Of a stretch of DNA of 64,000 bases, positions 710-61,951 are shown piece by piece. The translations under genes were made by a program, and so were the position numbers. Below the pieces are notes generated by a model. The model worked only from the letters and a program-made list of their open reading frames with translations, did no database searches and was not told the DNA's origin. The DNA is from Histomonas meleagridis (taxonomy: Eukaryota > Parabasalia > Tritrichomonadida > Dientamoebidae), in the NCBI GenBank assembly GCA_020186115.1, contig WSYJ01000060.1:2666001-2730000 (forward strand), in the 5' to 3' direction. Within the stretch, counting starts at the first letter, position 1. Every line of letters starts with the position of its first letter.

Positions 710-2796
710 TTAGTTATTGATTAATTTAACAATATCATTGTGCCCTTTACTAAGAGCAATGTTGAGTGCTGTTTCAAAAAAATTGAAGATATTCCAAAAA
801 TTTTTATGAAATTTTAAATGAGTTAAATAATCTTTATACTAAAAGAATATAAATTTTTCTCATATTTATTAGCACCTTTATCAAGAAGCATCTGAACGAT
901 GTCTATATTGTCAGTGTAAGCAGCTATCATAAGAGGTGTGTTTTATTTTATAATAAAATTCCAAATATCATTTTGAAACTTCAAATTATTGAATCAAATA
1001 TCATAAAAAATAAATCGTTATTTTTTACATTTATTTCAATATTATTTTGTTGAAGAAGTAAGTTAGCAATCTTTACTTCATTTAAACGAATTGCTTTGAA
1101 TAGAGCAGTCTCAAAAAAATTGATTAAATTCCAATTATTTCTATGAAACAAGATATAATTTTTATTAATTTCAAATAAAATTTATAAACATCTTTCGCAT
1201 TAATATTAATTCCTCTTTGAAGAAATAGATTAACCATATCGTAATTATGTACTGTAATTGCTTTATGAAGTGCTGTTTCAAATAATAAAAATAAATTTTA
1301 TACATTATTTTGAAATATGAAATTATTATAAGAAATTTCAAATAAAGAACTAAAATTCCTTTGTCATTAATATCTACATTACTATTTTCTAAGAATATTT
1401 TGACTGTTACCAACCAATTATGAGCAACTGCTTCCATAAATGCTGTGTTAAATGATTAAAATAAACACCAAATATTGTTATGAAATGTAAAATTATCAAT
1501 AGTAACGGTATTTTTAATTTTGGTATTAATTCCTTTTTGTTCAAGAAGTAATTTAACTAATTCAAAATAACCTTTTTTAGCTGCTATAATTAGTGCTGTT
1601 GAATTATTTAATTTAAAAAAACAAGTTATAACATATTTAAACATCATAATTCCCAAAAAAATATCATATTAAATAAACAAATTTTTGCATTTAGATTAAT
1701 ACCTTTATGTTGAAGAAGTATTGTTGTAGTTTTTAATAAACCATTATAAGCTGCAGTCATTAATGCTGTTTCAAATATTTTTATTTAACATTTTATAATT
1801 CATTTTAACTATAAGGTTTTGTAAAAAACATCATATAAATTTAAATAAATATCTTTAGCATTAACATCAATTCCTTTTTGTTCAAGAAGTAATTGAATTA
1901 TTTCATAATAACCATGTGTAGCTGCAGCTATAAGTGGTGTAATAAATATCATAAACAATTTCCTAAAAATATCAAATAAATACCTTATTTTTTGATAATA
2001 AACTTTAAATTAAACAAATAAATATTTTTAGCATTAATATTAATTCCCTTTTGTTGAAGAAGTGTTTTGGTAATTTGGAGATATCCTTTATTACATGCAT
2101 GGTAAAGTGGGAAATCAGAAGAATTAAAAAAACACCACATATTTTAATGAAATTAGAATTTATTATTTTAAATATTAAATAAAGCTAATTTATATCTCTG
2201 CTATTTACATCAAATCCTCCATGTTCAAGAAGTAAATCAACAATTTCATTTCTCCCCATTTCTACAGCAATGAAAAGTGCAGTTTTAAATCAATAAAATA
2301 ACATCCAAATAATCTTTAGTGATATCAAATCATAAAAACTAACATTAAATAAAAAAATTTAATACTTTTGATTCTTATATCGATTTTACATTCATTAAGA
2401 AGTATTTTTACGATATCAGGATATCCATTTAAACAAGCACGGAATAACGCTGTATGTAATTATATAAAGAAATTCCAAATTATATAAGGAAATTAAAAGT
2501 TATAATATTAAACTTTGATGAATCAAAATAAACATTTTTTGCATTAACATTTACATTTTCCTTTTGAAGAATTAATCTAAGAGCTTCAGTGTTACCTGAA
2601 GAAGCAGCAAAAACAAATGGTGTATAAAATAAAATGAATAAATTTCATAAATATTAATTAAAATATTAATTCATTCAAACAAATTACATATAATACAAAA
2701 ATATATCTCTAATATTAACATCAATTGTATATTGATTTAGAAGCAAACTAAAAATTTCTTTATTATATCTGCTTTGAGAATTTATTAATGCAGGAT
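710..2796 (-). other. Array of 13 ankyrin-repeat mini-exons separated by ~71-nt spacers (3' part of the 4095 gene)
   Basis: Downstream of the ORF ending at 2836, the minus strand carries 13 further ankyrin repeats. Their 5' ends (ACA, ACT or equivalent codons) lie near 2796, 2624, 2453, 2283, 2111, 1938, 1772, 1601, 1443, 1276, 1109, 939 and 772. Each stays open for 32-33 codons with the signature T-A/P-L ... LLLEQKGIDINAKDIYL. The only exception is a TAG at the last codon of the 2283 unit. The spacers are AT-rich, and most are exactly 71 nt (others 54, 72 and 74). They contain stops or shift the frame. The last unit ends KLINN and a TAA at 710-712, like a natural C-terminal cap. The repeats differ from one another, so open frames kept across all of them imply selection. 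Spacers begin TTTTATTTRATATTT-like and end near ATTATTT plus one polar codon. Consistent GT-AG ends are absent. Confidence 0.75.
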
Positions 2797-2835
2797 AAAA
2801 TAATTAAAATAATTTCCAAGTGGAAAATAAAAATA

Positions 2836-4095
2836 TTAAAAACTATAAGAAAACATCAGGCGAAACAAATAAATATCTTTTGCATTTAGATCAATTTCTT
2901 CAAATGTAAGAACATATCTTACAACTTCAACATTTCTACTAAATGCAGCATATGGTAAAATATCTTTTGGTATTTTATTCCCTTCTACAAAGTGTTTAAC
3001 AAGATATAAATTCCCTATAATAGCTGCCTTATTCATAATTTTATCATTTATAAGCATTCCATAGCTTTCTAAATATGCAAGAATTTCATAATTTCTATGA
3101 ATAACGCATAAAAATCCTATTTGAGAAAGATCATTACATATAACGATTTTATTTTCATAAAGATATTTAATCATTTGATTCCGATGATATTCAATTGCTG
3201 TTTCTATTGTATTATCAAACGATAAATGATATTGCTCACAAAGTTGTAATATTTCGAAGTTTCCTCCTGCAATAGCATATTTACATGCATCAGATGTATC
3301 ACAATCATTTTGCAATAAAAACTTGAAACATTTAACGGATCCGAAAAATGCAGAATAATTAATAAGTGATACACTTTTTTGATTAACAAGAGAACATCTT
3401 TCATAAAGAGATGGTTCTATTTTTTGATTAAAGTCAAAATTGGCTTGTGTAGACATTTCTTGAAGTTTTTCAATATTGTCATTTCGAATAATTAATGCTA
3501 TTTGGGAGGGATTAACTCCGTCATGAACAAGGTTTTTATGTAGTTTCCAATTATCTTTCTTAAGTTCATCAAATGATTTAAAGAATTGCTCATAAAAAGG
3601 AACATCTTTAGCACATCTTTTAATAGCAGCTTCTGTTTTATAATGCGAAAAATATAACGTTCTTATTCTTAAAACTTTTTCTGGTTTAATAATATCACTT
3701 TCAATTAACATCTGAAGAAAATATTTTGCTTCTTGTTTGTAACGTGCTGTATCACAAAGAAATTGTACAAAACGTTCCATCATTTGAAGATCGTCTCCAA
3801 TTTTTTCAGTAAGGTTTATTATAAAGTTAACATAAATTTTGAAATCATTTCCGTGATTTGAATGAAAGCACGTAAAAATTAAATTAAAAACAATGGCTGT
3901 CCAAGTAAAACTATAAGTTGGATCAAAATAAGCTAGGACCTTACAGGCAGTATCTTCAAAATTATTGTCATTGAGATTAAAGAGATAATATTCAAGATAT
4001 AGTAACCTTTGCATATATTCTGGATTTTGACATTTTATTTGTCTTAATTCTGGATTACTAATGAGTTGTGGCGGATTGCTTTCGTTGTTTCCCAT
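2836..4095 (-). CDS. DUF3447/ankyrin protein, large first coding segment (419 aa as a read-through ORF)
   Basis: The 419-residue ORF starts at an ATG at 4093-4095. Its N-terminal half is helical and characteristic of the trichomonad DUF3447 family. A core at roughly residues 195-290 contains SLINYSAFFGSVKCFKFLL and YAIAGGNFEILQLCEQ, followed by ankyrin-like helices ending IDLNAKDIYLF. Reading on past DIYL gives only a short tail before a stop. That tail lies in the first spacer of the downstream array, so this ORF is probably the large 5' exon of a gene running to 710. Ankyrin repeats bind other proteins; the partner is unknown. Close relatives lie at 23372-26533, 36098-36427 and 52070-53335. 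This is the only one of the four whose large N-terminal segment is intact. Confidence 0.75.
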   Translation of the reverse strand: MGNNESNPPQLISNPELRQIKCQNPEYMQRLLYLEYYLFNLNDNNFEDTACKVLAYFDPTYSFTWTAIVFNLIFTCFHSNHGNDFKIYVNFIINLTEKIGDDLQMMERFVQFLCDTARYKQEAKYFLQMLIESDIIKPEKVLRIRTLYFSHYKTEAAIKRCAKDVPFYEQFFKSFDELKKDNWKLHKNLVHDGVNPSQIALIIRNDNIEKLQEMSTQANFDFNQKIEPSLYERCSLVNQKSVSLINYSAFFGSVKCFKFLLQNDCDTSDACKYAIAGGNFEILQLCEQYHLSFDNTIETAIEYHRNQMIKYLYENKIVICNDLSQIGFLCVIHRNYEILAYLESYGMLINDKIMNKAAIIGNLYLVKHFVEGNKIPKDILPYAAFSRNVEVVRYVLTFEEIDLNAKDIYLFRLMFSYSF

Positions 4096-4469: not shown

Positions 4470-6596
4470 ATGGAAGGAAAATGCATTCATAAAATCAAAT
4501 CAGACAGCGTTTTAGCTGATTTGTATCTTTCTGGTGTTCTTTCAGATTTTTGGAAGCTACAAATTCAAACAGGAGTTAATTCATCTTATTGCATATGTCT
4601 TAATTGTTATAATATATTTGCAAACAAAAAGAGTGTTCAAGAACATTATAAGAATACTTCACACTATCTTTATTACTTTGTTTATCCTTTTAACATTTTA
4701 TGTTTTGAATGTAAAAAACGTTTTGAATGTCCCAAAAAGTTCATACTTACTACATGTCTAGCTGTTCCCTCTATTCCTGCTCAGAAGCTTCATTGTGGTT
4801 TCAAAAATTTAGGGAGTAGTTGTTATGCGAATTCAGTTTTTGCCGCCCTTTCCAATTGTCGACCAGTTGTTATTGCATCATCACTTTCACACCTCCCCTT
4901 ATGCCGTACCTTTTCCATTGCATGTAATCAGAGTAGTTCATTTAATAAAATCATTCATCAATTAATCACAGAACTAAGTCCAACTGTTCATCAAGATGCC
5001 TCTGAGTTTTATGTATTATTAACTGGTTCCATGACTCAAGATCCATTACTTAAGAAAATTCTTGTTGGCAAAACCAAAACGCATATTGTCTGTCATAAAT
5101 GTGGAAACCATCGCGAATTCTCTGATGAATTCTCATTCTTATCAGTGCCAATACGTACTGAAGGATGGGAAGGATTACCACGTACATCGGAATACATGTG
5201 TCGATCATATGGATGTACAGATGATGTATTTAGGTCGGAAGCGAATGGGACATTTGGGAGCTCATTTGTTTCCGTATTAAATCATGGAACATCTGAATCG
5301 ATCCAAATGGAAAAAGGGTTACAATCATTGTTCATATCTACGCAATGTGAATGTGAACAATGTTCGTCAAATGATTGTGAAATGTTCCAAGTATTAGAAG
5401 AACTTCCCGAAATATTTACAATCCAAGTTACACGTTATGGGAGGCGATGGTTTGGCATTGGGAAGATGCATCAAAACGTATCATTTCCACATGAAAACGT
5501 TGACTTTTCACATTTTTTACCAATGAACATTACATGCACAAGGACTGTATATGATCTTGTCGCCGTTATATTTCATGTTGGCTTAATGAATGTCGGCCAT
5601 TATCAATGTTATGCCAAAACTCATAATCAATGGTATTTATATAACGATGATAATGTTACTAAAGTCGATTTAAAGACGGTACTTAATAGTCAATGTTATA
5701 TATTATTTTATAAGAAAAGAACAAGTCCTGAAATAAAAGTATTAAGGAAACGTTTTAAAGATCCTGTAAAATTTACTCCGATTTTCGTGTTTAGTGATCC
5801 GAAATGGTGGAAAGAAAGTTTTTATTGTAATAACTTCGATAGGGCAAATTTAAAGGATGAAATTAAAGACGCTGAAGAACTTGCGGGATGCTGCGTCACA
5901 AGAGAAAAAAATAATGATGACTTACGAAGAGAAATAATTTATAATGTTCCACGCGTGAATAGAAAGGTTCCTCTATCCAGAGAAGACGCAGAGAGAATAA
6001 TGAAATTTATCACTGAAGATGTGCCGCCGCCGGTGTTGCATGCGTCCTCTTGGGCTGATTGCACAGTCGTGGAATCTGTAATGATATTGGCAAAGCCCGG
6101 ATTGGATATAGAGAACGGAAATGCGCAGAATAATGGTAATAACTCAGAAAGTGAAGAAAGCTTGAACACACAAAATAATAATAATGAAAATGGAAATACA
6201 CAAAATATTAACAATGAAAATACAGAAGAAAGTTTAAGTAATGAAAATAGTAACATTAATAATACAAATACTCAAAATATTAATAATGAAAATGTAAATA
6301 CGCAAAATAATAACACAGAAAATGTAAATACTCAAAATATTAACAATGAAAATACTCAAAGTGAAAACACAGAAAATGCAGAAGAAATTACAAACAACGA
6401 AAATGGTAACACAGAAAATGCTCAAAACAATAATATGGAAAATGTGCAAATCAATAACACAGAGGATGCGTCCAAAGATAATAATACGGAAAAAATTGAT
6501 GAGGAGAGTGATCGCTCGGGCGCAGATGACAATGGAAAAGAAGAACAAAATGGCAAAAGTGTCAACGACGATACAGAAATTGATAAAGAACTATAG
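4470..6596 (+). CDS. Ubiquitin carboxyl-terminal hydrolase (USP family)
   Basis: The 708-residue protein removes ubiquitin from substrates by cysteine proteolysis. The N-terminus has paired Cys/His (C5, H7, C41, C43, C46, C78, C81) suggesting a zinc-finger UBP domain. The catalytic Cys box is NLGSSCYANS with Cys118, where the usual family text is NLGNTCYMNS. QDASEF follows at residues 175-180. Zinc ribbon cysteines are visible as CHKCG (208-212) and CECEQC (293-298). The His box is GHYQCYAK with His377, followed by the NDD triad region at 392-394. All catalytic elements are present, so it is probably active. After about residue 545 the tail is low-complexity Asn/Glu/Thr (NTQNINNEN repeats), probably disordered. 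The start is the first ATG, with TCATG immediately at the start. Confidence 0.9.
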   Translation: MEGKCIHKIKSDSVLADLYLSGVLSDFWKLQIQTGVNSSYCICLNCYNIFANKKSVQEHYKNTSHYLYYFVYPFNILCFECKKRFECPKKFILTTCLAVPSIPAQKLHCGFKNLGSSCYANSVFAALSNCRPVVIASSLSHLPLCRTFSIACNQSSSFNKIIHQLITELSPTVHQDASEFYVLLTGSMTQDPLLKKILVGKTKTHIVCHKCGNHREFSDEFSFLSVPIRTEGWEGLPRTSEYMCRSYGCTDDVFRSEANGTFGSSFVSVLNHGTSESIQMEKGLQSLFISTQCECEQCSSNDCEMFQVLEELPEIFTIQVTRYGRRWFGIGKMHQNVSFPHENVDFSHFLPMNITCTRTVYDLVAVIFHVGLMNVGHYQCYAKTHNQWYLYNDDNVTKVDLKTVLNSQCYILFYKKRTSPEIKVLRKRFKDPVKFTPIFVFSDPKWWKESFYCNNFDRANLKDEIKDAEELAGCCVTREKNNDDLRREIIYNVPRVNRKVPLSREDAERIMKFITEDVPPPVLHASSWADCTVVESVMILAKPGLDIENGNAQNNGNNSESEESLNTQNNNNENGNTQNINNENTEESLSNENSNINNTNTQNINNENVNTQNNNTENVNTQNINNENTQSENTENAEEITNNENGNTENAQNNNMENVQINNTEDASKDNNTEKIDEESDRSGADDNGKEEQNGKSVNDDTEIDKEL

Positions 6597-6879
6597 CATA
6601 TTGAGTGCTTTACATATAGTGCGTGTTTATTATGTTATCACTCGAATAAACATGTTCAATGAACGTGTGGTTATTTGGTTTAAATAAATTAGTTTGTTTA
6701 TTCAAATAAAAATATAAGTTACAACACTTATAAATTATTTTTGCTGCATTTGTTCTGTAGATTTATCAATAATTTCATGGATTGCTTTCTCTAAGTTCTT
6801 TCTTTGTTTGGGTTGGTTTGAGGGTGGTTTGTTTATTTTCTGTTTATTTTGGAAAATAATATTTGGATATTATTTAAAT

Positions 6880-7190
6880 TATTTTGGACAGCACTTATTT
6901 TAGCATTTGAAAATGGTTTCACAGAAACAGTTCAATTACCTCTTGAACAAGAAGCTATTGATGTTTATGCAAAAATATTTATATGTTTTATTTGAAACTT
7001 TATTAAACCATATTAAACAGCACTTGTGATTACATCTTCATTTGTTAACCCAAAAATAGTTCAATTACTTCCTGAACACGAAGGAACTGATGTTTATACA
7101 AAGGATATTTATATGTTTTATTTTATATATCACACTGCGCTTATTTCCACTTTCAGAAACAGTTCAATTACTTCTCGAAAGACATTAACG
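6880..7190 (+). pseudogene. Decayed DUF3447-type ankyrin cassettes
   Basis: Three degenerate ankyrin units lie on the plus strand. The first reads T-A-L-I-L-A-F-E-N-G-F-T-E. A second begins TALVITSS near 7018 and a third begins TALIST near 7135. The units are separated by the same TTTTATTT-type AT-rich linkers seen in the intact arrays, but here shortened to about 30 nt. No N-terminal segment is nearby and the units are mutated (for example CTTCCTGAACACGAAGG). This is probably a relic of a fourth ankyrin locus lying between two unrelated genes. Confidence 0.55.
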
Positions 7191-7220
7191 TACAAGTGAA
7201 ATGAAGAGTTATTTTCCTTT

Positions 7221-10200
7221 TTACTTATTTTCCATTGTTTGGCAGTATGTTATAGCGTAAACTATTTTTTCGTACGCTGCCTCATCGTCAGTATAGGACG
7301 GCAAATGCAACAAGTTGAAGCATGTTGAAGCGCTTGGCAGCAGCTGATTCGGGTCACCGCTTACGTTCACGTTATTATCTATTTTCAGCTTAAAGTTTGG
7401 AGCTATCACAGAGTTTGGTAATCTTGTGAACGTCGTAATAAACTTGAGCAACAACTTCAATTGTTCCTGATTCAATCTTTCGACAGCTCTCCAAAACCTT
7501 TGTATGATTGGGTTTTGCATTCCATCCGAGAAACCTGTCACAGTAGTAATCGACTTCAAATATTGTACAGAGATCGCTCCGCTTCCTTGTGCTAACCTTG
7601 ATAATGTACAACCGGACAATAAGTTATGATGTTTAAATCCGATGTTATCTCTAAACCCATTTCTCATTTGTTCCAACATTGGTAATATCGAATTAATTCG
7701 ATAATTAATAAATTCATCGATATATTGATCAATATCATCTTTTTCTACTTTAACATCTTTATGATTTGGCAAAAGTATTTTCTTTTGATTCCAACCAGTG
7801 ATTATCCAATTTGTAGTGATTAAATCTTCATTTAAGTTCTTGAATAAAGTACCTAAAGTTGAGTCTTCATTCATTATATCTTTCTTTGTGATTTTTTCTC
7901 CTGCTAAATATTTCCAAACAATATTTGCAAATGGTAAATCTTGACTAAAGCCATTACGAACTATAATACCTAAATATACTCCAATAGTATAATAATCATT
8001 TAAACGTGTCGTCGATTCTTCATCTGGAACAAATGTATTCGATTGTGTTAATTGGACCATTAATTTAGTTGTAGGCTCAAAGATAGATGTAGCTACTTCG
8101 ACAACAACTTCTCGTCCTGGTCCTCCTGCATCAATAGCACTTTCACCTTCGAATTGGATATGCCAAGGGAAATATTTATAACGTAAACCTTCTGCTTTAT
8201 ACTTTTGAACGTATTGTGTTAATTGTGATACCATTGACCATTTAGTTTCTCCTTTACCATCCAATATAATACGTTGTGCTGCATGTCGATTAAATACCAT
8301 TTGAGGTGCATATCTTGGTGACGTAATCATACATTCTTTAGGTGTAATAATTGATTCAATAATACCACTAGCTGCTTCATCTATAGAGATTAATTTACGT
8401 AATGAATCTAAAATTTGTTTATTTAAATTGTTTCTATGTTTATAACGAATATAATTATAATAATGTATTAATAATGCTCGTAATATTACAACATTTGGTG
8501 AGAATTGTGAACATAATGATGATGATTTAGCAATAGATTCAACATCTCCAAATGTAGGCGATTGTAATTGTGTACGTGAAAATAATTGTAATAATTCTTC
8601 TGTATGTGATTCTTTCCATTTACAAGCAAATTGTTGCATATCACTAATAAATACATCATGAATTTCATCTATGTTAACTTGATAAGGTGATTTATCAACA
8701 ATAGTTCTTTGTTCTGGATATTCTAATTTAATAGTAAATAATTTCCATGGATCAGTATTACCTTGTCCAATTAATGATATAAATGTATTACCTTGTCCTA
8801 CTACAAAAGGTCGTAATATTTGTGCTCCTTGTAAGAATTCTCCATCTTCGAATGTTTCACTTTGTGAATATGTACATATTAAATCATAAGGAATTTGTGT
8901 TCGTGGATTATTTAATGTGATTTTTACAGTAATATTCATTTGATTAGAATTACGGATAACATATTTAGTTGGATCATATCGATCGACTGTAGGATGAATA
9001 AATTCTTTTTGTCCATGCCAAAATTCACTAATTCTAAACCAATATGATATAATTAACCAAAATGGAAATGATGATAATGTATTATATTCCTTATTTAATA
9101 TTCGAATAGTTTGTAATATTTTATTATAATCCCCATTTAATAATACTGGATCAATAGGTGTATAAGGGATTATACAAGTTTTACTTTTAGGTGGTTCAAG
9201 TTTACCAAAGAAGAATTCAGGGAAGAATGGAGTAAGTTGAATAGCATTTTTATTTGTTAATATATCATATTCACTATTATAACAATTGATGAAATAAAAC
9301 TCATTACGGCATTTAGCTATAGAAGCCATTAATATTAAACGTTGTAAATATTCTTTATCTTGATCAATAGGTGATGTAGGTAATTGCATTCGAATAAATT
9401 CATAAAATTGTGGTAAAAATATTTGTATAAATGGTGAATGAATTATATAACAATCTAAAAATACATTTTTTGCAATGATTTTTTCTTTTTGATTTTTGAT
9501 CATAAATATAAAATTCTTTAATAATAATAATAATTCAAATCCACTACCAAATACCCAAGAATTACTTTGATCAAATGATAATATTGAGATATATTTAGAC
9601 ATGTCATTAAAATGTACTTTAATTTCATTTGTACTTTTAGCTAAGATATAAGGAAATGAAACTCCATTACCATTAACTGTGGCTGCACCTTTTTGTACAC
9701 CTAAGAAATCATTATAAGTTATTATTGCATTCCGATCTTTAAAAATAGTATTAGGATTAAATGGTATAATAAATTTATGTGCTTTATTAGGATAAGCTAA
9801 TAAATGTAATTGTTTAGAATTAACCATAGCTTTAATACCTAATGATATTAAATCTAAATATTCTTCTTTAGAGATAATACATTTTAATGCTGATATCATT
9901 TCTTTTTCAAATGATCCATAAATATGATTAACTTCTGCATTATCACTCCATATAGGTTCTTTTAATGAAAATGGAAATGAATTATTAGTTAATAATGAAG
10001 GTACAAAACTTTCTAATTGTACTACAAAAATAGAAAATAACTTAAAAATTACGGGTTGTACTAATTCTATATTAATATTAGTAATTCTCATTAATGATAT
10101 AGTTTCCCATTGTTTCATTAATCGATAATAAAGTCCATTAATCATTGATAATGTAATTTCTTGACCTGATTCTGTTGAAAAACTGATATGGACTGGTATA

Positions 10201-19214: not shown

Positions 19215-20675
19215 ATGAACTTTGAACAAGGCTGCATTTACCTTCAATTAGGTTTAAGACAGAATTATCTCAATACTGTATTTCACAAGCAATTGTCTGT
19301 TTTAAAATTTCCAGGTTTTCCCTATTTATCATATTCGATATTACAATATTTATTCAAAATTTACCATTATTTATTACATGTAAAAAGCACACCATTAGAC
19401 AAAATAATGATATTAATTTTTCGATATCATGTTCCAAATGTGATCAAATAATTTTCAAATTGCATCTACAAAAAACCTCTGAAACAGGAACAATAGGCTG
19501 CCGAATTCTTTGCGAACATGTAATCGACCTTCTTCATGAAGAAACAGATAATTCTTCCAGAAAGTTTATATTTGTGTTTCCATTGGATGAAGAAATAATA
19601 AACAATCATAAAAAAGATTTCAGAATAATTCATCCGCTTCAGATGATTGGTAAAATAATATATAAAAATACTTCGAATGGAATTTTAAAACATTTTTTGA
19701 GGCAAATTATTTTTTCAAATTGTTGGTATTATAAACTTTCGAATCAAAAAACAAAATGTTCAAGTTTGGAAGAAATTATTTCTTCAAAAAGTGGTTTTTT
19801 CTTTTTATATTTATATGAAAAATCAGATATTAAAAATTTATTAGTATATGATAATAAACCAGTTCAATGCTTCATTTGGATTTCTCCTGGAATTTTAGAA
19901 TTTCTATCTATCGATGGTGGTAGTCTTTATATTCAAATGGATGCTTCGTTTTATGCTTTACGTCCTTATGTGTATTCAATACCACTTTTAATATTCAATA
20001 ATGCATCGATTCCTTTAGAATTAATTTTAGGTCCATCGGAATCTGAAAATTTATATTCACTTATTTATCAATGTATCAAAAAAATTACTAATTCTGATCG
20101 TTTAAATAATTTACCAGTATTATCTGATGAAGGGAGTGCTATTGAATCTTTTGTTAATCATGAAAATTTAGAACAATTTTTATGTTATAGGCATTTAATT
20201 GAGAAAAATTGGTTCGGGGTCTTTTATTGCACAAATTGTCAAAATATTATTATTTCAACCTAATATTGATAGTTATGAGGTTCAATAAGTTCAATCTATT
20301 GCAGATGTTAATGAACTAATTATTAATAAAGAAATCGATTCAAAAACGATTATGAAATTTGCGAAAATATTTGATTTACGAAAATTAAATGGTAAACTTA
20401 TTGCAAAAAGTAGTAATAATCGAAATGGTTTATGGAATAGACAGACATTAGGAATCTCAACATGCTCAAATCACATTGAAAGTTTGCACAAAAAAATGAC
20501 TGTGAATGTTTTCCGATTTTACAAAATTAATCGAAGATTACAAATTGTTTTAGATACAATTTTTGATATTTATAATAATTTTGAAATAAATTCAATAAAA
20601 CTAACTCATAGATTACTTTGCAATTTAAAGAGAGTTGCACAACATATTTTAATAATTTTAAATAAATGCTGAATA
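19215..20675 (+). pseudogene. MULE transposase, copy A (frameshifted and truncated)
   Basis: The transposase reads in three pieces: 19215-19451, 19460-20263 and 20352-20672. The MULE catalytic pattern is present. The first Asp is in YIQMDASFYAL, the second in LPVLSDEGSAIESF followed by LCYRHLIEK, and a probable Glu is in STCSNHIESLHKK. Compared with copy B, one T is missing near 19339 and one A is extra near 20207. A stop (EVQ then TAA) at about 20286 is shared by both copies. The C-terminal zinc/SWIM part has been deleted. No active enzyme can be made from this copy. MULE transposases excise and insert DNA using a DDE nuclease domain. Confidence 0.8.
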
Positions 20676-21437: not shown

Positions 21438-21650
21438 TTACATGAAATTCAAATACGTACAAAATTTATATATAATCATATTAACTTTCGAAAATGCAAT
21501 AAAAATTTTCACTCCCGAAACGAATATTATAGATAAAATGAAATAAATCACATAAAAATATCTAATAAAACAATAAAAATAAAGTAATAGATGGATATTG
21601 TAAATATATTGAAATCGCAGATTATTAAAACCATTTTTAACAATATTCAT
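21438..21650 (-). other. 70-codon open frame in the MULE 3' region (copy A), probably not a gene
   Basis: An open frame starting MNIVKNGFNNLRFQYIYNIH is present in both MULE copies (here and at 48953-49165), with only three or four amino-acid differences. It is rich in Phe, Tyr and Ile, as any AT-rich frame would be. Conservation simply follows from the copies being nearly identical, so coding is unproven. Confidence 0.25.
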
Positions 21651-21816
21651 ATTTAATTCATTTTTTATAAAATACGTATATATTCTATTTATTTTATTAT
21701 TCGTAAATTAAAATAAATTAATATTATTACGAGATAAATATGTTTAGAAACCGATTTTCTTGTTTTAACTTTTAAGGTTTTTTCTATGCATTTTGATCGT
21801 AAAATTCGATTTTAAA

Positions 21817-23371: not shown

Positions 23372-25296
23372 TTAGTTATCGATAACAATATTAAATGCTG
23401 TCAAAAATATTTTAAATAATTTCCAAATTTTATCTTGTAATTTTAAATAAAACATATAAATATTATTTTCAGCATTAATATCAATTCCTATTTGTTCAAG
23501 AAGTAATTTAACTATTTTTGTATAACCTTTTTGTGATGCGTTATTAAATGAATGTTTATATTTATGAAGTTAATATTTTGGCTAGAAACTGATTAAAAAG
23601 AATTAACACATTTCAACTAAAATTACTGAAGGAGCCATAAAAGACTTGCAGCTTTATATCTTTTAATTTAGGAGTAAAAACCGTTCAGTTGGAACATATC
23701 ACCACCTCTCATAAAATTACGAATTTGGGCGAGTGGATTGTATGTCGTTTTGTTGCATGAAGATTTGAACATTGTTTGTGTTGTGAAACGGATAATATCA
23801 ATTTAAAAAGTTGAGGAAACTGTATCAGGATGCCCCAAATATGCCTCATTGATTAGTTTAATTTCCTTATTTCATAAGATAATGAACAATAATTTTTAAT
23901 GATTATTTAAATCAAAAATATAATAATATGAAAAAAATGATTACAAAAATTTACTTTTACTATTTGAAATATTGTTAAGGTTTATCTTTTATTTATATAT
24001 TTAATAATGATAAATTAATTTTTTTCGTGTTGTTGTCATTTTCTTTTTGTTTAAGTAATTTAACTACTTCTGTATGATCATTTTTAGATGCATACATAAG
24101 TGCTGTCCAAAATAATTTAAATTATTTCCAAATATTATTTTGAAATCCAAAATTATTAAAATAAATATTAAATAAAACAAATAAATATCTCTAGTATTAA
24201 TATTAATTCTTTTTTGTTCAAGAAGTAATTTAACTATTTCTGTATGACCTTTTTCAGATGCACAAATAAGTGCTGTTTTAAATAATTTAAATAATTTCCA
24301 AATATTATTTTGAAATCCAAAATTATTAAAATAAATATTAAATAAAACAAATAAATATCTCTAGTATTAATATTAATTCTTTTTTGTTCAAGAAGTAATT
24401 TAACTATTTCTGTATGACCTTTTTCAGATGCACAAATAAGTGCTGTTTTAAATAATTTAAATAATTTCCAAATATTATTTTGAAATCCAAAATTATTAAA
24501 ATAAATATTAAATAAAACAAATAAATATCTCTAGTATTAATATTAATTCTTTTTTGTTCAAGAAGTAATTTAACTATTTCTGTATGACCTTTTTCAGATG
24601 CACAAATAAGTGCTGTTTTAAATAATTTAAATAATTTCCAAATATTATTTTGAAATCCAAAATTATTAAAATAAATATTAAATAAAACAAATAAATATCT
24701 TTAGCATTAATATCAATTCCTTTTTGTTCAAGAAGTAATTTAACTATTTCTGTATGGCCTTTTTGTGATGAGTATATAAGTGCTGTTTTAAATATTTTAA
24801 ATAATTTCCAAATATTATTTAAAAATATAAAATTATTAAAATAAATTTTAAATAAAACAAATAAATATCTCTAGTATTAATATTAATTCTTTTTTGTTCA
24901 AGAAGTAATTTAACTATTTCTGTATGACCTTTTTCAGATGCACAAATAAGTGCTGTTTTAAATAATTTAAATAATTTCCAAATATTATTTTGAAATCCAA
25001 AATTATTAAAATAAATATTAAATAAAACAAATAAATATCTCTAGTATTAATATTAATTCTTTTTTGTTCAAGAAGTAATTTAACTATTTCTGTATGACCT
25101 TTTTCAGATGCACAAATAAGTGCTGTTTTAAATAATTTAAATAATTTCCAAATATTATTTAAAAATATAAAATTATTAAAATAAATTTTAAATAAAACAA
25201 ATAAATGTCTTTAGCATTAATATCAATTCTTTTTTGTTCAAGAAGTAATTTAACTATTTCTGTATGACCTTTTTCAGATGCGTACATAAGTGCTGT
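23372..25296 (-). repeat. 170-bp tandem array of ankyrin mini-exons plus spacers
   Basis: Eight consecutive units have the ankyrin start at 25296, 25126, 24956, 24786, 24616, 24446, 24276 and 24106, a perfect 170-bp period. Several neighbouring units are identical or nearly so, spacers included, showing recent tandem duplication. Each unit has 99 nt that stay open (TALICASEKGHTEIVKLLLEQ and so on to DIYL) and 71 nt of AT-rich spacer. Beyond 24106 lie a shortened repeat, an insertion of about 450 bp (23549-24000), one more repeat (23540-23445) and a short terminal segment TAFNIVIDN with TAA at 23372-23374. The 170-bp period is not a multiple of three, so direct translation through the array is impossible. 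Confidence 0.85.
23549..24000 (-). other. Foreign insertion within the ankyrin array, with a protein-like remnant
   Basis: About 450 bp interrupts the ankyrin periodicity. Its minus strand near 23680-23790 can be read as a fragment (CNKTTYNPLAQIRNFMRGG) that looks protein-like but is bounded by stops. I do not recognise it; it may be a piece of another mobile element or surface gene. No terminal repeats were found. Confidence 0.3.
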
Positions 25297-25337
25297 ATAA
25301 AATAATTTAAATAATTTCCAAATATTATTTTGAAATA

Positions 25338-26533
25338 TTAAATTATTAAAATAAATTTTAAATAAAACAAATAAATATCTTTAGCATTGATATCAATTCC
25401 TTTTTGTTCAAGAAGTAATTTAAATATTTCTATATTGCCAATTTCAGAAGAAGCAACAAATGCTTTTTCAAGATCAATATTTTCAAGGAAGCATTTGGTT
25501 AAAAGAATATTACGACTTTTTATTATATCAGAAGAAATTCCATCTAATTTTATATTTTCGTTTTCTTTAAAAAACAAAAACAATTCATAATTACTGCAAA
25601 TAATACATTTTTTTGCCAACTGATTAAAATTTGGAGTACCAAAAATTTTATTTTCATAAATATAATCAAAGATATCATTTCGATGAAATTCTATTACATT
25701 TTCAAGTGAATTTGAGAATGATGAATGGTTTTGTTCACATAAATGAATAATTTCAAGATTTCCACCTGCAACTGCATATTTCCCCGCATTCATTAACCTT
25801 GCATTATTTAATAATAAATACTTAAAACATTTAATTGATCCGAAAAATGCTGCATAATCAATTAATGTAACTGCATTTTGATTAATATATGAATATCTTT
25901 CATAAAGTGATGGCTTAATTAGTTGACTAAAATCAAAATTTGGTTGTGATGATATTTCTTGAAGTTTTTCTATTTCATCTTTTCGAATTATTTTCGCAAT
26001 TTCATTCGGATTAACTCCTTCTTTAATTAATTGCTTATGAAGTTCCCAATTATTCTTTGATAGCTTTTCAATATTACATTTTATCTCATCATTAAATTGA
26101 TCAAAATTAAAATGGGATGATTCAATTTCATTTTGAGTTTTATAATGTATAAAATATAATGTTTTCTTGTTTTTAACTACATTTGGGTTTATCACTTCTT
26201 TTTCGATCAACTTTTCAAGTAAAAAATTTGATTCTTGTGTACCTAAATCGAGAAGTAATTGTGTAAAAAGATCTGTAATAGTATGGTCTTTTTTTGTTTA
26301 TTAATAACTTTTATAAAATTTAAACATATATCAAAGTCAAGTATTCTTGCTACAAAATATCTGTATGTTAAATTGCATAAGGTGTAATTTATTGAATTAC
26401 TACTAAACGAACTTAAAATCCTTGCTACTGACTCCTCGATATTTGTAAAATTCAATTCTCGTATGATTTTTTGAATTAACACAAGGCCTTGAAGGCATTT
26501 CACTTGTTCTTCATTTGTTAACCTCTGTTCCAT
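25338..26533 (-). pseudogene. DUF3447/ankyrin gene B, N-terminal segment with a frameshift
   Basis: The gene starts at an ATG at 26531-26533, preceded by TTTTCACTGG, an initiator-like TCACT. The first 80 or so residues (MEQRLTNEEQVKCLQ) run into a 7-A tract at about 26285-26295, after which the family sequence continues in another frame (TITDLFTQLLLDLG...). From 26210 the ORF is intact for 290 residues. It carries the DUF3447 core TLIDYAAFFGSIKCFKYLL and ends INAKDIYLF at the start of the first spacer of the 170-bp array. The shift lies in a homopolymer, so it may be a sequencing error, a true inactivation or slippage. If it is an error, the gene spans 23372-26533. Confidence 0.7.
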
Positions 26534-35733: not shown

Positions 35734-36097
35734 GAAGCTCATATATTTAAATAAATTGTTAATAGTATTTATATAAATTTGTTATTATTTAGTTGATAAT
35801 AAAATTTAATATGTATATTATATTTTTATTAAATTCTATGTTTTGAGATTTTATATGGATAAGATCTTGCACAAAAGGCAAGTTGTTTTACTCTACCCAA
35901 TTATTTTTTGAATATATTAAAATCATTTTTATCATTGAATTGATATGGTTTTCCATGAAATTTTAAATCACTTATATTTTAATTTGCAAATTTGTTAAAA
36001 TAAATTTAATAAATATTTTATTTTTTGGTGCTAATATCAAACCTTTCTTCAAGAAGTTTTACGATACAGTATAACCATTATAAAATTTTCATGAAAA
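35734..36097. other. Intergenic region with a minus-strand ankyrin remnant
   Basis: Around 36000-36075 the minus strand carries a broken ankyrin unit (GGTTATACTGTATCG, then AACTTCTTGAAGAAAGG). A frameshift and a deleted TPL segment separate it from any gene. It lies head to head with the plus-strand fragment that follows. Confidence 0.45.
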
Positions 36098-36427
36098 TTG
36101 TTCAGATCTTTCTTTAGAGATCATTATGAAGAACTTTCAAAGAATGATTGGGAACTCCACAAGAAATATATTAAAGAAGGACATAATCCAAATAAAATTG
36201 CGAAAATAATTCGAAATGATGAAATAGCAAAACTTCAAGAAATATCATCACAAAATGATTTTGATTTTAATCAAATCATTGAGCCATCACTTTATGCAAA
36301 ATGTTCATTTATTAATCAAAAAAATGTTTCATTAATTGGAAATGAAGAAATCATTCATTTCTATGAACAATATCATTTATCATTTAAAGATGCATATGAA
36401 ACAGCAAAATTTTATTTTATAATATAA
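36098..36427 (+). pseudogene. DUF3447/ankyrin gene fragment
   Basis: 109 residues match the middle of the DUF3447 proteins: NDWELHKKYIKEGHNPNKIAKIIRNDEI, then FDFNQIIEPSLYAKCSFINQKNVSLI. An internal deletion then joins directly to NEEIIHFYEQYHLSFKDA, leaving out the DYAAFF-type core. There is no N-terminal segment and no mini-exon array behind it. It is closest to the copy at 52099 (KYIKEGHNPNEIAKIIRNDEIEKLQE). I read it as a dead fragment. Confidence 0.65.
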
Positions 36428-43896: not shown

Positions 43897-44383
43897 ATTA
43901 AATGTTCAAAGTTTAATAAATTTGACTTTTCGTGAATTTTGTTTCGAAATTTGTCGCTTTCATTGGAAAAAGAGTTAACTCACGAAACAGTGAACACCCG
44001 CATCACTTTGTGAATATGCACGCGAAATTATCACTTTGTGAATATGCACGCGAAATTATCACTTTGTGAATATGCATGCGAAATGTTCATTTAGTTAATA
44101 TGCATGCAAAATATTCATTTAGTTAATATGTATGCAAAATATTCATTTAGTTAATATTCATACTAAATATTCATTTAGTTAATATTCATACTAAATATTC
44201 ATTTAGTTAATATGCACGCGAAATGTTCATTTTGTTAATATGAATCCGAACAAAATCGAACATGGGCCAATCATATTTGGGATATTGGTCATAAAATGGC
44301 TTCACTCATTTCTTAATTATGCGTATGTATAAGTGTAAAGTGTGTGGAATTAACGATTAAACATTGAAGTTCACTTTATATTA
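43897..44383. other. Intergenic region holding a 28-bp minisatellite
   Basis: The gap contains nine 28-bp repeats (separate entry) and then the promoter of the cupin gene. TTCACTTTATATTAATG is a good initiator match directly at the next ATG (44384). Confidence 0.7.
44002..44253. repeat. 28-bp tandem minisatellite, nine copies
   Basis: Nine consecutive 28-bp units start at 44002, 44030, 44058, 44086, 44114, 44142, 44170, 44198 and 44226. The first three read ATCACTTTGTGAATATGCAC (first 20 bases); the later six are the variant TTCATTTAGTTAATATGCAT. Centre copies drift (TATTCATACTAAAT). The transition between the two variants suggests expansion in two steps. There is no purine-rich spacer and no cas gene, so this is not a CRISPR. 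Confidence 0.9.
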
Positions 44384-45067: not shown

Positions 45068-46826
45068 TTATTGAAGTTGGTATTTGACAAGATTAGCATA
45101 AAAGCCATTTCTTGCCATTAGTTCTTGATGTGTTCCTTCTTCAATTACTTGTCCATCTTTAAAGAGTAAAATTTTGTCTGCATTCATAACTGTTGCTAAC
45201 CTATGAGCCACCAAAATCACTGTTCTATCCTTTCTAAACTTTTCAAGAGATTCATGTATTAATCTTTCACTTTCTGTATCAAGTCCAGACGTAGCTTCAT
45301 CCAACAATAATATTGGTGAATTAGCTAAAATTGCTCTTGATATACAAATTCTTTGTTTTTGTCCACCACTTAAACTCGTTTGGTGAACAATTGATTGATA
45401 ACCATCTGGCAATTGTGTTATGAAATCATGCGCGTTACCAATTTGAGCTGCTTTAATAACCTCGTCCATATTTGCATCTTCTTTTGAATATTGAATGTTA
45501 TCGAAAATTGAAGTTGAAAAAAGTACAGGTGTTTGAGGAACAGCTGAAATATAAGATCGAAGATTAACAGCTGATATTTTAGATATATCTTGATCGTCAA
45601 TCAATATTTGTCCACTTTCAATTTCGTAAAATCGTTGAAGTAATTGAAGTGTTGTCGATTTACCACATCCACTTTCACCAACAAACGCAACTGTTTGTCC
45701 TGTATTAATTACAAAACTCAGGTTTTGGACGGCATATTTTTCTGAATTTTGATATTTGAAAGAAACATTTCGAAATTCAATTTTTCCTTTCACATTTTTA
45801 AGTTCCCCACCTTCTTTACGATCAACTTCAGGTTTCATCTCAATAAGTTCAATAATTTTTTGAGCTGATACTGCTGATTTGTTCATATCATTGGAAATTG
45901 ATATTGCTTGTGTTAAACCATCAACAGCCATAATCATTGGAAAAGAAAACAATAAAAACATCACCACTATGGTACCCATAATATGGCTTGTGAATTGCTA
46001 AATCTCCACCATAATAACAAATAGCTGCAACCATTAGATTTGAAAGTATGTAAATAATTCCATCTTTTGTTCCTTGAGTAAGACTTGTTTTCAAACATAC
46101 ATTATCAACAGTATCTAATTGCTTTTTATATTTTGCTGCTTCGTAAAGCTCATTATCGAATGATTTTATAGTTCTAAATGATGTAATTGCTTCTTCTGCT
46201 TTATTGTTTGCTGCTGATAAACATTCATTATATTTAAACCAAATGTTTTCAATTATTTTATCACCTATAATATAAATTATAAGACATAACAAAATTACTA
46301 TTCCACCAGGAAGAGCAAGTCTCCAACATTTGATAAAAGCAACAATTATTCCTGCAATGGATTCACCAGTTTTTTGAACAGAATTAAGTAATTTTTGATA
46401 ATAAGTTTCCTGCATCATTGTAATTTCTTGAGATAATCTTCCAATGAGAACACCTGTAGGAGTTCGATCAAAGAAATCAATTCCTTGTTCAACTAAATTA
46501 CAATAAACTCTTTCTCTTAAATCTCTTGGAAATGTTGAGTTACACCATATTCTAATTGCATATGAAATAACTGATGCTAAAAACATTCCAATAACATAAT
46601 ATATCATATTTAAAACTACAGGAACGAAATCATCAAAAAAATTTTCACTAGAAAAAACATTAACCATATCTCCGAGTAAAATTGTCATTATAACTGGTAA
46701 TGCTCCAACAACAAAATGAAGAATAATTGTCAATACAACTGCCCATTTGTTTTTAACATAGCTCATGATTTTGAAGTATTCTCCTCCTTTTCTACTGTTC
46801 TGATTTCCTTCCAATGGTTTTTCCAT
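45068..46826 (-). pseudogene. ABC half-transporter A (ABCB type), one frameshift
   Basis: Read from the ATG at 46824-46826 (MEKPLEGNQNSRKGG), the protein has a six-helix membrane part and then a nucleotide-binding domain. The two frames overlap at 45921-45979. Family text GDVFIVFFSMIMAV is split by one extra base near 45936 (TTTTCCAATG). The binding domain is intact: Walker A GESGCGKST, signature LSGGQKQR, Walker B ILLLDEA, and the H-loop in LVAHRL. Two half-transporters make a working pump. An initiator match ACATCACTATTATATGG lies directly at the start codon. The single shift may be a sequencing error; if so, this is a 586-residue transporter. Confidence 0.75.
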
Positions 46827-47019
46827 ATAATAGTGATGTGTAAATTCCAAAAATTTTCACACAATTTTTCATAAAGGAAGTTTTTGGGTTAAGTTTGTGA
46901 TTTCAATACTTAATAGAGTTTTTGATTGAAATTTGACGACCAAATCAAAAATTTACATTGAAATATTCAATAGTCGTTCCACAGAATGTTGAGCCTTGTT
47001 CAAATCACATCACATTTTA
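46827..47019. promoter_or_regulatory. Divergent promoter between the two ABC half-transporters
   Basis: 193 bp separate the divergent starts. Initiator-like sequences touch both: CATCACTATTATATGG on the minus side and ATCACATTTTAATGG on the plus side. Shared control of paralogous half-transporters fits heterodimer formation, but this is inference. Confidence 0.5.
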
Positions 47020-48542
47020 ATGGACTTTGAAGATTCTCAACATCAAAGGCCCACAGAAGAGTCAAACATGGATGCAAATCAACAAGGTGGACCAAATGAT
47101 TTTGATGTGAAACAACTTTTCGGGACAAGAGTTAGATTATATAAAATGTTATTTAAATATCCTAAAGCATTAATTGGAATAATTCCTTCAATTTTTGTTG
47201 GTGCGGTCCCTATTATAACATTTTTATTCGTTGGAAGAATAATTAAAGTTATTAGTGATTTTGAATCATCTCAAATTTATGATTTTAATGAAATCAAAAA
47301 CAATGCGCTTTATTTAACAATTATTGCGATAATTACAGGGATTTGTAAATTTCTTGATGAATTTTTATGGCCGAAAGTTGGTTCAGAATTTACGAATAAT
47401 CTGAAATCAAGTGTTTTTGAGAAAATTATGAAGAGTGATATTTCATTCTTTGATCAAAGTTCTATTGGTGATATGTTAACATTGCTTGGTCAAGAAACCG
47501 AATTTGTTCAAGCTACATTTGGACAAACGAAAGGAAAAGAACTTCAATATATAGGGCAATTTTTGTTAGGAATTATTCTTTCATACTTTTATTGTTGGAA
47601 AATTGCATTAATTGCAACATGTACATTACCATATTTTATAATTTTAATCATTGTTTTTGGAATGTTAATGGGTCAGCATTATAATCTTCTTTATATGTAT
47701 ACTGGAATATCAATCACTATTGCAGATGAGACATTATCATCAATTCGAACAGTTCGAGGATTTAATCATGAAGAATCCGAATGTAAAAGATTCATGGATG
47801 CAACAAAAATGGCTGTTAAAGAAGATCAAAAATCAGGATTTTTCCTGTTTTGTTTAAATACTTTGATTGATTTAAGTGTTTGGGTCGTTGTTATTGGTAA
47901 TATGTATTATGGTGCTCAATTAGTTGACAAAGGAGAAATTATATCAAGTGATTTAATATCACTTTTCGGTTTCATATTTTTTGGTTTTATGGGAATTATA
48001 ATGTTTCAAATGCTTTTCCAAGAAGAAGACCGTGCATTAATTTCAGGAATGCTTCTTTTTGCTATTTTAGATCAAGAACCATCTATTCCATTTGATGGAG
48101 GTGATATAATTGAAAACTTTAAAGGACACATTGAATTTAAGGATGTTTCATTTAAATATCCATCTCGTGATGTTTATGTATTAAAAAAAATGTTTCATTT
48201 GAAATTAAACCTGGAGAAATGGGAGCTCTTGTAGGTCATTCAGGATCAGGAAAATCGACTTGTATTCAACTCTTAGAAAGATTTTATGATGCTACAGATG
48301 GTAAAATTTTACTTGATGGTAAAGATATTAAAACACTTGATCCACATTGGCTCCATCAAAAAATTAGTCTTGTATCACAAGAGCCAATACTATTTCAATT
48401 ATCTGTTGAAGATAATATTAAATATGGCAAAAGAGATGCAACAAAAGAAATGGTTGGAGATAGCATACTTGTTAAAATTTGTGTTGATATTTGTTTATAT
48501 GTAAGTGATGAAGTTGATGAAACTTTTGTTATAACAGATTGA
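47020..48542 (+). pseudogene. ABC half-transporter B, frameshifted and 3'-truncated
   Basis: From the ATG at 47020 (MDFEDSQHQRPTEESNM), the membrane part is intact to about residue 360. A frameshift in an 8-A run at about 48183-48191 changes VLKKNVSFEIKPGEMGA into an aberrant tail, and the binding domain continues in the next frame with Walker A GHSGSGKST and a Q-loop LVSQEPILF. Then, near 48462, the homology stops (KEMVGDSILVK...), well before the signature and Walker B motifs. The MULE copy B begins about 300 bp farther, so the missing third was probably lost with that insertion. It is a paralogue of the divergent half-transporter A and is dead by two independent lesions. Confidence 0.8.
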
Positions 48543-51700: not shown

Positions 51701-52066
51701 CATTATTTTGTCTAATGGTGTGCTTTTTACATGTAATAAATAATGGTAAATTTTGAATAAATATTGTAATATCGAAATATGATAAATAGGGAAAACCTGG
51801 AAATTTTAAAACAGACAATTGCTTGTGAAATACAGTATTGAGATAATTCTGTCTTAAACCTAATTGAAGGTAAATGCAGCCTTGTTCAAAGTTCATTTGA
51901 TAAAACTAAAAATGTCAAAAAAAGTATGCCATTTGACTCAAACGCAGTCACCATTGTTTCATAAAAAAAGCCCTTCCATTGAGCTACGAAAATTTCACAA
52001 GAACAAGGTAAGTACCTATATATAATCATTCTAACTATCCAAAATGCAGTAAAAGTTAATGATCTC
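48789..52066 (-). mobile_element. MULE DNA transposon, copy B (full length but mutated)
   Basis: 3.28 kb, inverted relative to copy A and nearly identical to it. The 5' edge lies at the GATCTC end (52061-52066) and the 3' edge near 48789. Copy B retains the ~0.5 kb that copy A has lost. It has inserted into the coding region of an ankyrin gene: bases immediately after 52066 encode QEALYLIEEMIRQNLIDANI, the middle of that protein. The opposite side does not hold the missing front part of that gene, so the insertion was accompanied by a deletion or the locus was already broken. The two copies flank a 27-kb segment in inverted orientation. Confidence 0.8.
49999..51896 (-). pseudogene. MULE transposase, copy B (frameshift and two stops)
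   Basis: The segments are 51896-51291, 51354-50821, 50757-50476 and 50433-49999. Reading starts MNFEQGCIYLQLGLRQNY. The first catalytic Asp is in IQMDASFYALRPYV, the second in LPVLSDEGSAIESF with LCHRHLIEK, and a probable third acidic residue in CSNHIESLH. A C-x2-C ... C-x-H motif (CETCYMNCGW ... FPCIH) closes the protein, as in SWIM zinc fingers of MULEs. Lesions: one extra T near 51310, a TAA after EVQ that copy A shares, and a TGA at 50476-50478 that copy A lacks. The shared stop suggests that both copies came from an already defective parent. Confidence 0.8.
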
Positions 52067-52069
52067 ATT

Positions 52070-53335: not shown

Positions 53336-54027
53336 TTGATATTTTAAGAATTATGGTAGTTCAATCCATTATTGGAAATCTCTTATATACATTAATGTTT
53401 CCAATCGTTTTCATTGAAATTTACATTTTAAAATTTCAATTTTTTTTCAGATTTTCAAATTTTGAATGAAATTATCCTTCTATTCATTTTGGTGATCACT
53501 TAAATTCATTTTAATAGTTTTTGTTTTTCAAAGTAAATAATAATATGATTACTTGACGATGTTAAACCTAACAATTTTTAATTCTGACATTTACAAGTGT
53601 CTGCTTATTTCTATTTTGTTGATAGTTTTGCATGCGATTGGTGTCATATTCATTTTTTCTCTCCGTTAAAGTTTACGGTTTTCATACAAAAAAAAAAAAA
53701 AAGTTTTGTTAGTCAAAAAAATTGAATATGCATTGTCAGATGCCAGCGGTTATGTTATTGTTTTAATTTGAGAGCATATTCAAAAAACTTTTCTTTGGGT
53801 GTGCCAACACTTTTGTGGTGTGCCAAATTTGGCTAAAATTAAGCTCAATTTTATCACCACCGGATGAGATCACGTCTTTTCTAGAAAAACTAAAGGCATT
53901 TCACTAGGGGACTTTGTTCAGTTTCTCTATATTGCATATATTTTTCTTACCATCCAAAAATATTCATTTTATAATGCTGTTCACAATCCTTTCAAAAAGT
54001 TATTTTAAGATGATGCAGTTTCCCAAA
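53336..54027. other. Intergenic region, nothing recognised
   Basis: It holds the end of the truncated ankyrin spacer and then AT-rich sequence with a 15-A run near 53690. No gene or clear motif was seen. A potential N-terminal extension of the surface protein (back to 53914) is not supported, because the second copy shares homology only from CCCAAAATG onwards. Confidence 0.4.
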
Positions 54028-61933: not shown

Positions 61934-61940
61934 TCGATAA

Positions 61941-61951
61941 AAATGAAGTGA
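61941..61951 (-). promoter_or_regulatory. Initiator (TCACTTCATTT) of polyubiquitin
   Basis: On the minus strand TCACTTCATTTTTATCGAATG ends with the start codon. This fits the trichomonad initiator TCAYTWYTCATTA, in which transcription starts at the A. A GTGAG..CTCAC inverted repeat overlaps the upstream side. The implied 5' UTR is about 16 nt. Confidence 0.75.

Follow-up and report, generated by a model that had tools for sequence, protein, structure and literature searches.

Spaced ankyrin mini-exons in Histomonas meleagridis and a possible class of small non-canonical introns

Short non-coding stretches that interrupt coding genes are known from several systems, and here we compare them with arrays of ankyrin repeats in the parabasalid Histomonas meleagridis, which infects the gut of poultry. 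The DNA analysed, called the window throughout, comprises 64,000 nucleotides (nt) of contig WSYJ01000060.1 (assembly GCA_020186115.1, positions 2,666,001 to 2,730,000 of the forward strand). Near its start lies gene A, in which an open reading frame (ORF) with DUF3447 and ankyrin matches is followed by ankyrin repeats, each in a short open piece of its own (a mini-exon) and separated from the next by a spacer.

The internal eliminated sequences of the Paramecium type are, like the spacers, short AT-rich inserts within coding genes. However, TA-to-TA excision (consensus positions 93-94 and 162-163) would take 69 nt out of a spacer unit by our hand count, and the frame would be lost. Moreover, the lineage is not known to have a second nuclear genome. 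Mitochondrial byps and gene 60 of phage T4 also involve short frame-breaking inserts, at many sites in coding genes, but the spacers show neither their identity of codons nor their hairpins. Euglenids and diplonemids belong to a different supergroup. Their noncanonical introns are reported to interrupt nuclear genes without GT-AG borders, beside canonical introns, as the spacers do (PMC6221363, PMC4770533, PMC12621601). Base pairing is described as bringing the ends of those introns together, whereas the Histomonas spacers gave no consensus pair in RNAalifold (42 of 66 selected diverged spacers) and a mean folding z of -0.20 (the 40 most diverged spacers). The spliceosomal introns of types A and B in Trichomonas vaginalis, likewise a parabasalid, are short as well (23 to 196 nt). 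Of these, 63 are reported as active (PMC12316389), with GT/AG ends and a 3' motif fused with ACTAA, whereas the Histomonas spacers have neither feature and number at least 994.

The domains themselves are those of the DUF3447/ankyrin family (PF11929, PF12796, PF00023), in which the repeats are contiguous, whereas here each repeat occupies one mini-exon. No description of spaced ankyrin arrays was found in titles and abstract starts of the papers listed on Histomonas, Tritrichomonas, Trichomonas, Dientamoeba or noncanonical introns. The assembly searched here measures 43.28 Mb, and the genome report gives 28.66% GC and 11,119 genes for the virulent assembly (PMC8529796).

Gene A

Thirteen ankyrin units lie on the minus strand 3' of the DUF3447/ankyrin ORF 4095..2836 and run down to position 710. 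We call the codon directly after a spacer codon x; in gene A it stands at positions 2797 (first) down to 775 (last). Spacer borders in the following list were placed by the 71-nt excision option, and the true borders are possibly up to 5 nt off.

2836..4095, minus: first exon, DUF3447/ankyrin ORF, 419 amino acids (aa); its stop lies within spacer 1, and coding sequence extends to about 2872
2801..2871, minus: spacer 1 (71 nt)
2702..2800, minus: mini-exon 2 (99 nt), no Pfam match alone
2630..2701, minus: spacer 2 (72 nt)
2531..2629, minus: mini-exon 3
2460..2530, minus: spacer 3 (71 nt)
2361..2459, minus: mini-exon 4, matches Ank alone
2290..2360, minus: spacer 4 (71 nt)
2191..2289, minus: mini-exon 5, matches Ank alone
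2120..2190, minus: spacer 5 (71 nt)
2021..2119, minus: mini-exon 6, matches Ank alone
1947..2020, minus: spacer 6 (74 nt)
1848..1946, minus: mini-exon 7, matches Ank alone
1776..1847, minus: spacer 7 (72 nt)
1677..1775, minus: mini-exon 8, matches Ank alone
1606..1676, minus: spacer 8 (71 nt)
1507..1605, minus: mini-exon 9, matches Ank alone
1453..1506, minus: spacer 9 (54 nt), in-frame class, with a stop
1354..1452, minus: mini-exon 10
1283..1353, minus: spacer 10 (71 nt)
1187..1282, minus: mini-exon 11 (96 nt), matches Ank alone
1116..1186, minus: spacer 11 (71 nt)
1017..1115, minus: mini-exon 12
946..1016, minus: spacer 12 (71 nt)
850..945, minus: mini-exon 13 (96 nt), matches Ank alone; first triplet TAA, coding probably from codon x (942)
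779..849, minus: spacer 13 (71 nt)
710..778, minus: terminal mini-exon 14, KLINN plus TAA

An earlier note on this stretch had described 13 repeats, each in an open piece of its own and divided by spacers of mostly 71 nt, with a last unit capped by KLINN and a TAA. Both points hold, on the minus strand, and the last unit finishes in HNDIVKLINN. Its tally of spacers was right for the nine of 71 nt, but the lengths that it listed add up to 14 spacers. With mini-exons of 99 nt we count 13, the others being two of 72 nt, a single one of 74 nt and one of 54 nt. Two units that are short of one codon have mini-exons of 96 nt, and the successive units start 170, 171, 170, 170, 170, 173, 171, 170, 153, 170, 167, 170 and 167 nt apart.

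The ORF at the head of gene A matched DUF3447 with 42.5 bits (cut-off 26.9; E-value 6.5e-11) and Ank_2 with 35.7 bits (cut-off 27.3). When ten mini-exons were scanned singly, eight scored above the cut-off of PF00023 (Ank). The 21-aa last one fell below it and mini-exon 2 gave no Pfam match.

Selection on the mini-exons

Units elsewhere in the genome were located with a stop-blind DNA profile (469 unique matches); its training set was 200 units that had initially been detected as open frames. Loci were included because they resembled either a blended unit or DUF3447 proteins, and some overlap. Identical units were counted once in the selection, indel, composition and stop statistics, and array-end counts include overlapping loci. 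The stop, substitution, excision-window and GT-AG tests used indel-free units only (243 or 235 of the 469), and the substitution and expected-stop analysis omits codons whose consensus is a stop.

The earlier note had proposed looking for the 170-bp unit in the rest of the genome and for the distribution of its spacer lengths. The unit is found genome-wide and a spacing of 170 nt dominates. A search with a 32-residue unit returned 9,943 candidate places, and many of the best 150 scored lie 170 nt apart. Among 265 unique neighbouring pairs from the window and the first 38 loci, the spacing was 170 nt in 201, 167 in 11, 153 in 11, 150 in 9, 173 in 9 and 171 in 7, with few others. Exact junction anchors occurred at 994 places with a gap of 56-86 nt and at none in the reversed control. 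In the first 100 of these junctions the gap, counted by hand, was 80 nt in 79, 63 in 11, 83 in 6, 81 in 2, and 77 and 71 in one each. The exact anchors recovered 54 of 341 full units (or 10 of 106), and the genome may hold roughly 6,000-10,000 spaced units if the 994 are divided by this recovery rate, although the sample behind this extrapolation is biased. In addition to gene A, at least 99 DUF3447 places were scored in the genome.

The mini-exons stay open. Exon codons one step from a stop contained no stop in 2,187 cells (243 indel-free units from 46 loci), and the corresponding spacer codons contained 201 in 2,673, 128 in 1,944 and 67 in 2,187 in the three frames; 111 of the 201 first-frame stops fall at one codon, 126. 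From the substitution matrix of the spacer, 131 exon stops were expected. This agrees with the view of the earlier note that the open frames are kept by selection, and the mini-exons are far more open than a neutral rate of stops would leave them. Exon codons 0 to 90 are free of stops in the indel-free units and the first stops appear at codon 93 (11/243). At the 3' border of the spacer, codon 161 is a stop in 15 of 243 units and codon 164 in 0 of 235; the latter is TTT, two steps from a stop.

The ratio of non-synonymous to synonymous substitutions, which the earlier note had also suggested for the mini-exons, was 0.70 over all exon codons. Conserved codons gave 0.43 (95% locus bootstrap 0.36-0.50) and hypervariable ones 1.16, the two classes being picked from the same data as their ratios. 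Variation is greatest at codons 5, 8, 9 and 22 of the unit and at codon x, which we take to be surface positions of the ankyrin repeat. Codon x encodes K, N, W, E, R, D, Y or Q in 274 of 324 units. It is TAA in two, one a decayed orphan in the window (7014-7016) and the other an interior unit of locus L010. Exon indels were multiples of 3 in 15 cases and not in 5 (328 units), those of the spacer in 20 and 26 cases, respectively (386 units).

These counts bear on whether the 170-bp unit is a dead or selfish satellite that spreads as DNA and yields no protein past the first exon. Its copy number, perhaps thousands, would suit such an element, as would the several disrupted units that are array-last or orphans and the high similarity within a second array in the window:

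25341..26210, minus: second DUF3447/ankyrin ORF, head of array 2, Pfam DUF3447
24000..25380, minus: array 2 of 170-bp units, 8.1 copies with 94% matches in TRF, nine units chained

The final exon of array 2 ends in ..KENDNNTKKINLSLLNI and a stop. A satellite is nevertheless very improbable, given 0 exon stops against 131 expected, the pattern by codon position, the hypervariable codon x and the exon indels in multiples of 3. Strongly diverged arrays such as gene A also remain open. The LRR_5 repeats of this genome show no such interruptions: one of the 150 matches listed from 202 contained a stop.

Array ends provide a further observation. A stop before codon 31 was present in 14 of the 42 array ends listed and in 4 of 312 other units, overlapping loci being counted in both; several of the 42 "last" units end inside a spacer and are probably not true array ends. 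Besides that of gene A, example tails are TEIVKLLSFYL and SEIVKLLLSHK. At locus L016 the last spaced unit continues without a spacer into a canonical repeat (NAKDNDGFSAI), a charged tail and a stop. One junction without a spacer is common to locus L051 (NTKNVLFESPL) and its relative P0003 (NSKNVMFESAL), and a spacer comes after it. Gaps at about residue 312 of DUF3447 in five paralogues (L063-L067) looked intron-like, but they proved to be in-frame coding inserts.

The earlier note had offered a silent cassette store as an alternative. On this reading the mini-exons would not be expressed where they stand, and recombination would transfer copies of them to an ankyrin gene that is expressed. 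The units are indeed numerous, alike and hypervariable at few codons, and one array of the window stands behind a broken DUF3447 head. A recipient would have a spacer-less junction, and exact anchors with a gap of 0-30 nt found none genome-wide against the 994 spaced ones, although diverged sites could escape them. No joined TAL array was seen among the matches examined in a search of 5.8 billion proteins (13 of 13, 2 of 18 and 22 of 38 matches). Silent archives carry many pseudogenes, whereas 453 of the 469 units have no exon disruption, and part of the arrays finish in a terminal exon with a stop. This alternative is weakened and we consider it unlikely.

The openness of the exons, the stops in spacers, the stops at array ends and the finding, described below, that in-frame spacers are not kept open together make the units look as if they were translated without their spacers. 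As judged from sequence, the mini-exons are coding and under purifying selection.

The spacers and their possible removal

At the border from exon to spacer the fraction of T rises from 0.317 to 0.523 and that of C falls from 0.118 to 0.031. Just 5' of codon x, ATTT is almost invariant (0.92, 0.97, 1.00 and 0.97 in 39 diverged units), and both TTTGGAA and ATTT persist at the spacer 3' end even in those units that have diverged most. A stop within the last 51 nt was found in 20 of 38 frame-keeping units (144-156 nt), in 136 of 327 of the 170-type and in 24 of 31 others. With stops in 20 of 38, nothing keeps the in-frame spacers open. On these sequence features, the spacers are not kept open and have sharp borders, a near-constant length and conserved motifs. 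A spacer is a non-coding stretch within a coding frame with sharp coding borders, a trait of introns in general.

A related organism shares the spacer element, mostly in its in-frame form within a sample of open frames that is biased. Its protein P0001, from a 1,932-bp contig, is 47% identical to gene A and 48-55% identical to its genome matches. It enters the first spacer with a KD-to-x distance of 77 nt (counted from the protein), the same as in the Histomonas consensus. TAL-type units occur in 19 of 22 proteins read (P0032-P0047, P0049, P0050 and P0052), and in most cases a spacer peptide that keeps the frame, for instance YFNNLIFQNNIWNFFKLF, links one unit to the next. Of these 19 proteins, eleven end within a spacer and eight do not, and such ends can be contig ends.

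The spacer might be a translated linker of 17-20 residues in the 150/153-nt units, the 170-nt units being frame-broken or frameshifted. Histomonas has 150/153-type units that read through (e.g. L009 and L057). The 153-type prevails among the proteins of the related organism, where an ORF of the biased sample contains between one and three YFNNLIFQNNIWNFFKLF-like peptides that read through. However, stops in the in-frame Histomonas spacers are no fewer than in the 170-type, and units of the 170-type predominate (79 among the first 100 of the 994 junctions). A coding linker is improbable, although the related organism may have one.

Eleven excision windows of 71, 74 or 77 nt, with starts at 88-95 and ends at 162-166, left no stop in any of the 235 units. 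In contrast, each 68-nt window tested put stops in at least 11 of 235. The part removed would therefore be about 71-77 nt, not the 68 nt that the earlier note had thought likely. A constant frameshift was considered as well and rejected. Loci L004 and L008 are other ankyrin genes with TPLH-type repeats, and their spacers lie at the same site, before x. The distance from the KD-like tetrad to x is 26, 60, 26 and 61 nt in L004 (77 or 60 in TAL units) and, counted from one codon after the tetrad, 44, 63 and 43 nt in L008. Since the spacer lengths occur in all three frames, excision fits and a fixed frameshift does not.

The messenger RNA could also retain the spacers and the ribosome hop over each of them. 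In yeast mitochondria many short AT-rich elements are bypassed, and the near-constant spacer length and the conserved ATTT at the 3' end are in keeping with such hops. In bypassing, the take-off codon equals the landing triplet, but for four placements this identity was found in only 0, 1, 1 and 6 of 235 units. The spacers have no RNA structure and up to 13 successive hops would be required in a nuclear gene, so programmed bypassing is very unlikely.

Ordinary spliceosomal introns with GT-AG ends could have been overlooked, as the genome does contain candidates for canonical introns. Two putative trichomonad introns of the form GTATGT..ACTAACACATAG are found at L068:1356-1512 (157 nt) and in L069 (130 nt), and they look quite unlike the ankyrin spacers. 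The pattern GTATGTN{15,45}ACTAACACACAG had no match genome-wide, but it is too narrow, as the L068 and L069 candidates are longer and end in ACTAACACATAG. The motif RCTAACACAYAG had 58 matches against 17 in the reversed control, many of them clustered about 826 bp apart on contigs C9, C53, C55 and C84. On the same contigs (loci L072 and L073) ACTAACACATAG is part of a repeat whose period is about 826 bp. As the earlier note had already remarked, the spacer ends are not GT-AG: one in-frame GT..AG pair near the edges was found in 235 clean units (start 86-99, end 157-167). A GYAYGY-like 5' motif and a RCTAACACAYAG-like 3' motif are absent from the spacer consensus, which has no branch-point motif. 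Overlooked GT-AG introns are therefore hardly credible.

The spaced arrays are real and widespread and their coding pieces are under selection; no mechanism tested explains them. We favour the reading that the arrays are parts of real ankyrin genes and that the spacers are probably small U-rich introns of a non-canonical class, about 71-77 nt long, with one to each repeat. Each gene would be headed by an N-terminal DUF3447/ankyrin exon and continue with numerous symmetrical mini-exons in phase 0, each about 96-99 nt long and holding one ankyrin repeat, and a share of the arrays would close with a terminal exon bearing its own stop. The non-coding spacers (mostly 71 nt, also about 51-54 nt, and of other lengths in related ankyrin genes) would be taken out to join the mini-exons. 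Removal from the transcript is the likeliest route, with spacers amplified together with the repeats. Removal itself, its place at the RNA level and the choice of machinery are inferred.

Several observations weigh against such introns. The spacers have no GT-AG ends, no branch-point motif and no conserved fold, and so no known machinery could be identified. The published annotation has 573 predicted introns for the 11,119 genes and at most one per gene (PMC8529796), in line with the intron-poor lineage assumed in the earlier note. Conservation of the spacer is close to that of the exon (means of 1.28-1.42 and 1.25-1.50 bits), and its substitution rate is 0.142 against 0.100-0.169 by codon position in the exon. 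Its length shifts by +3 (19 units) or -3 (4 units) more commonly than by 1 or 2 (10 units), as if the frame mattered. Homogenisation of tandem units may explain both the conservation and the multiple-of-3 shifts, and amplification of single events could explain the excess of +3 and -3 shifts. In gene A, unit 13 has TAA as the triplet preceding codon x; this triplet is almost always TTT elsewhere and codes for L, S and N in three other gene A units. Because of this TAA, the coding piece in gene A probably begins at x itself. An exon is disrupted in 16 of 469 units, several of them interior and several last units or orphans. In the related organism the spacers are mostly in frame and read through (19 proteins), and the N-terminal ORF alone would give a protein if the first stop were used.

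Were RNA to lose the spacers, a lineage described as poor in introns would contain many that gene finders miss and that lack its canonical splice signals. Either a hitherto unknown way of splicing or a spliceosome of very relaxed specificity would then be indicated. The gene models of a large family would need revision, and it would become possible to test how introns arise within repeats. Ribosomal bypassing of the spacers would instead amount to mass bypassing encoded in the nucleus, which is not known from elsewhere. More tentatively, this parabasalid may possess an undescribed removal system acting on thousands of U-rich elements of about 71-77 nt without GT-AG, branch site or fold. A conserved TTTGGAATTT..ATTT 3' end might be recognised and the element excised or bypassed many times per gene. 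The mini-exons are symmetrical in phase 0, so the frame would be kept whichever of them were joined, and a combinatorial repertoire of ankyrin binding might result.

Other copies and repeats in the window

Further pieces of the same family are scattered over the window. At 6888-7128 (plus strand) there are decayed orphan ankyrin units that lack a DUF3447 head; they show a frameshift in an exon and the TAA at codon x mentioned above. A DUF3447 gene at 52063-53349 (plus strand) is split into frames and followed by two spaced units, and it appears to be a decaying copy. A DUF3447-like fragment (..HYEELSKNDWELHKKY..) was recognised by eye at 36095-36427 (plus strand).

Overlapping ORF pairs in adjacent frames, transporter-like by eye, lie at 45071-46856 (minus strand) and 46993-48539 (plus strand); their frameshifts mark pseudogenes or base errors of the assembly. 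ORF pieces with the same start form the pairs 20289-20669 and 50479-50820, and 21441-21707 and 48896-49162, possibly transposon remnants. A 28-bp tandem repeat (8.5 copies) is located at 44013-44250. Finally, a 228-bp tandem repeat lies within an ORF at 61475-61993 (minus strand), which is presumably polyubiquitin-like.

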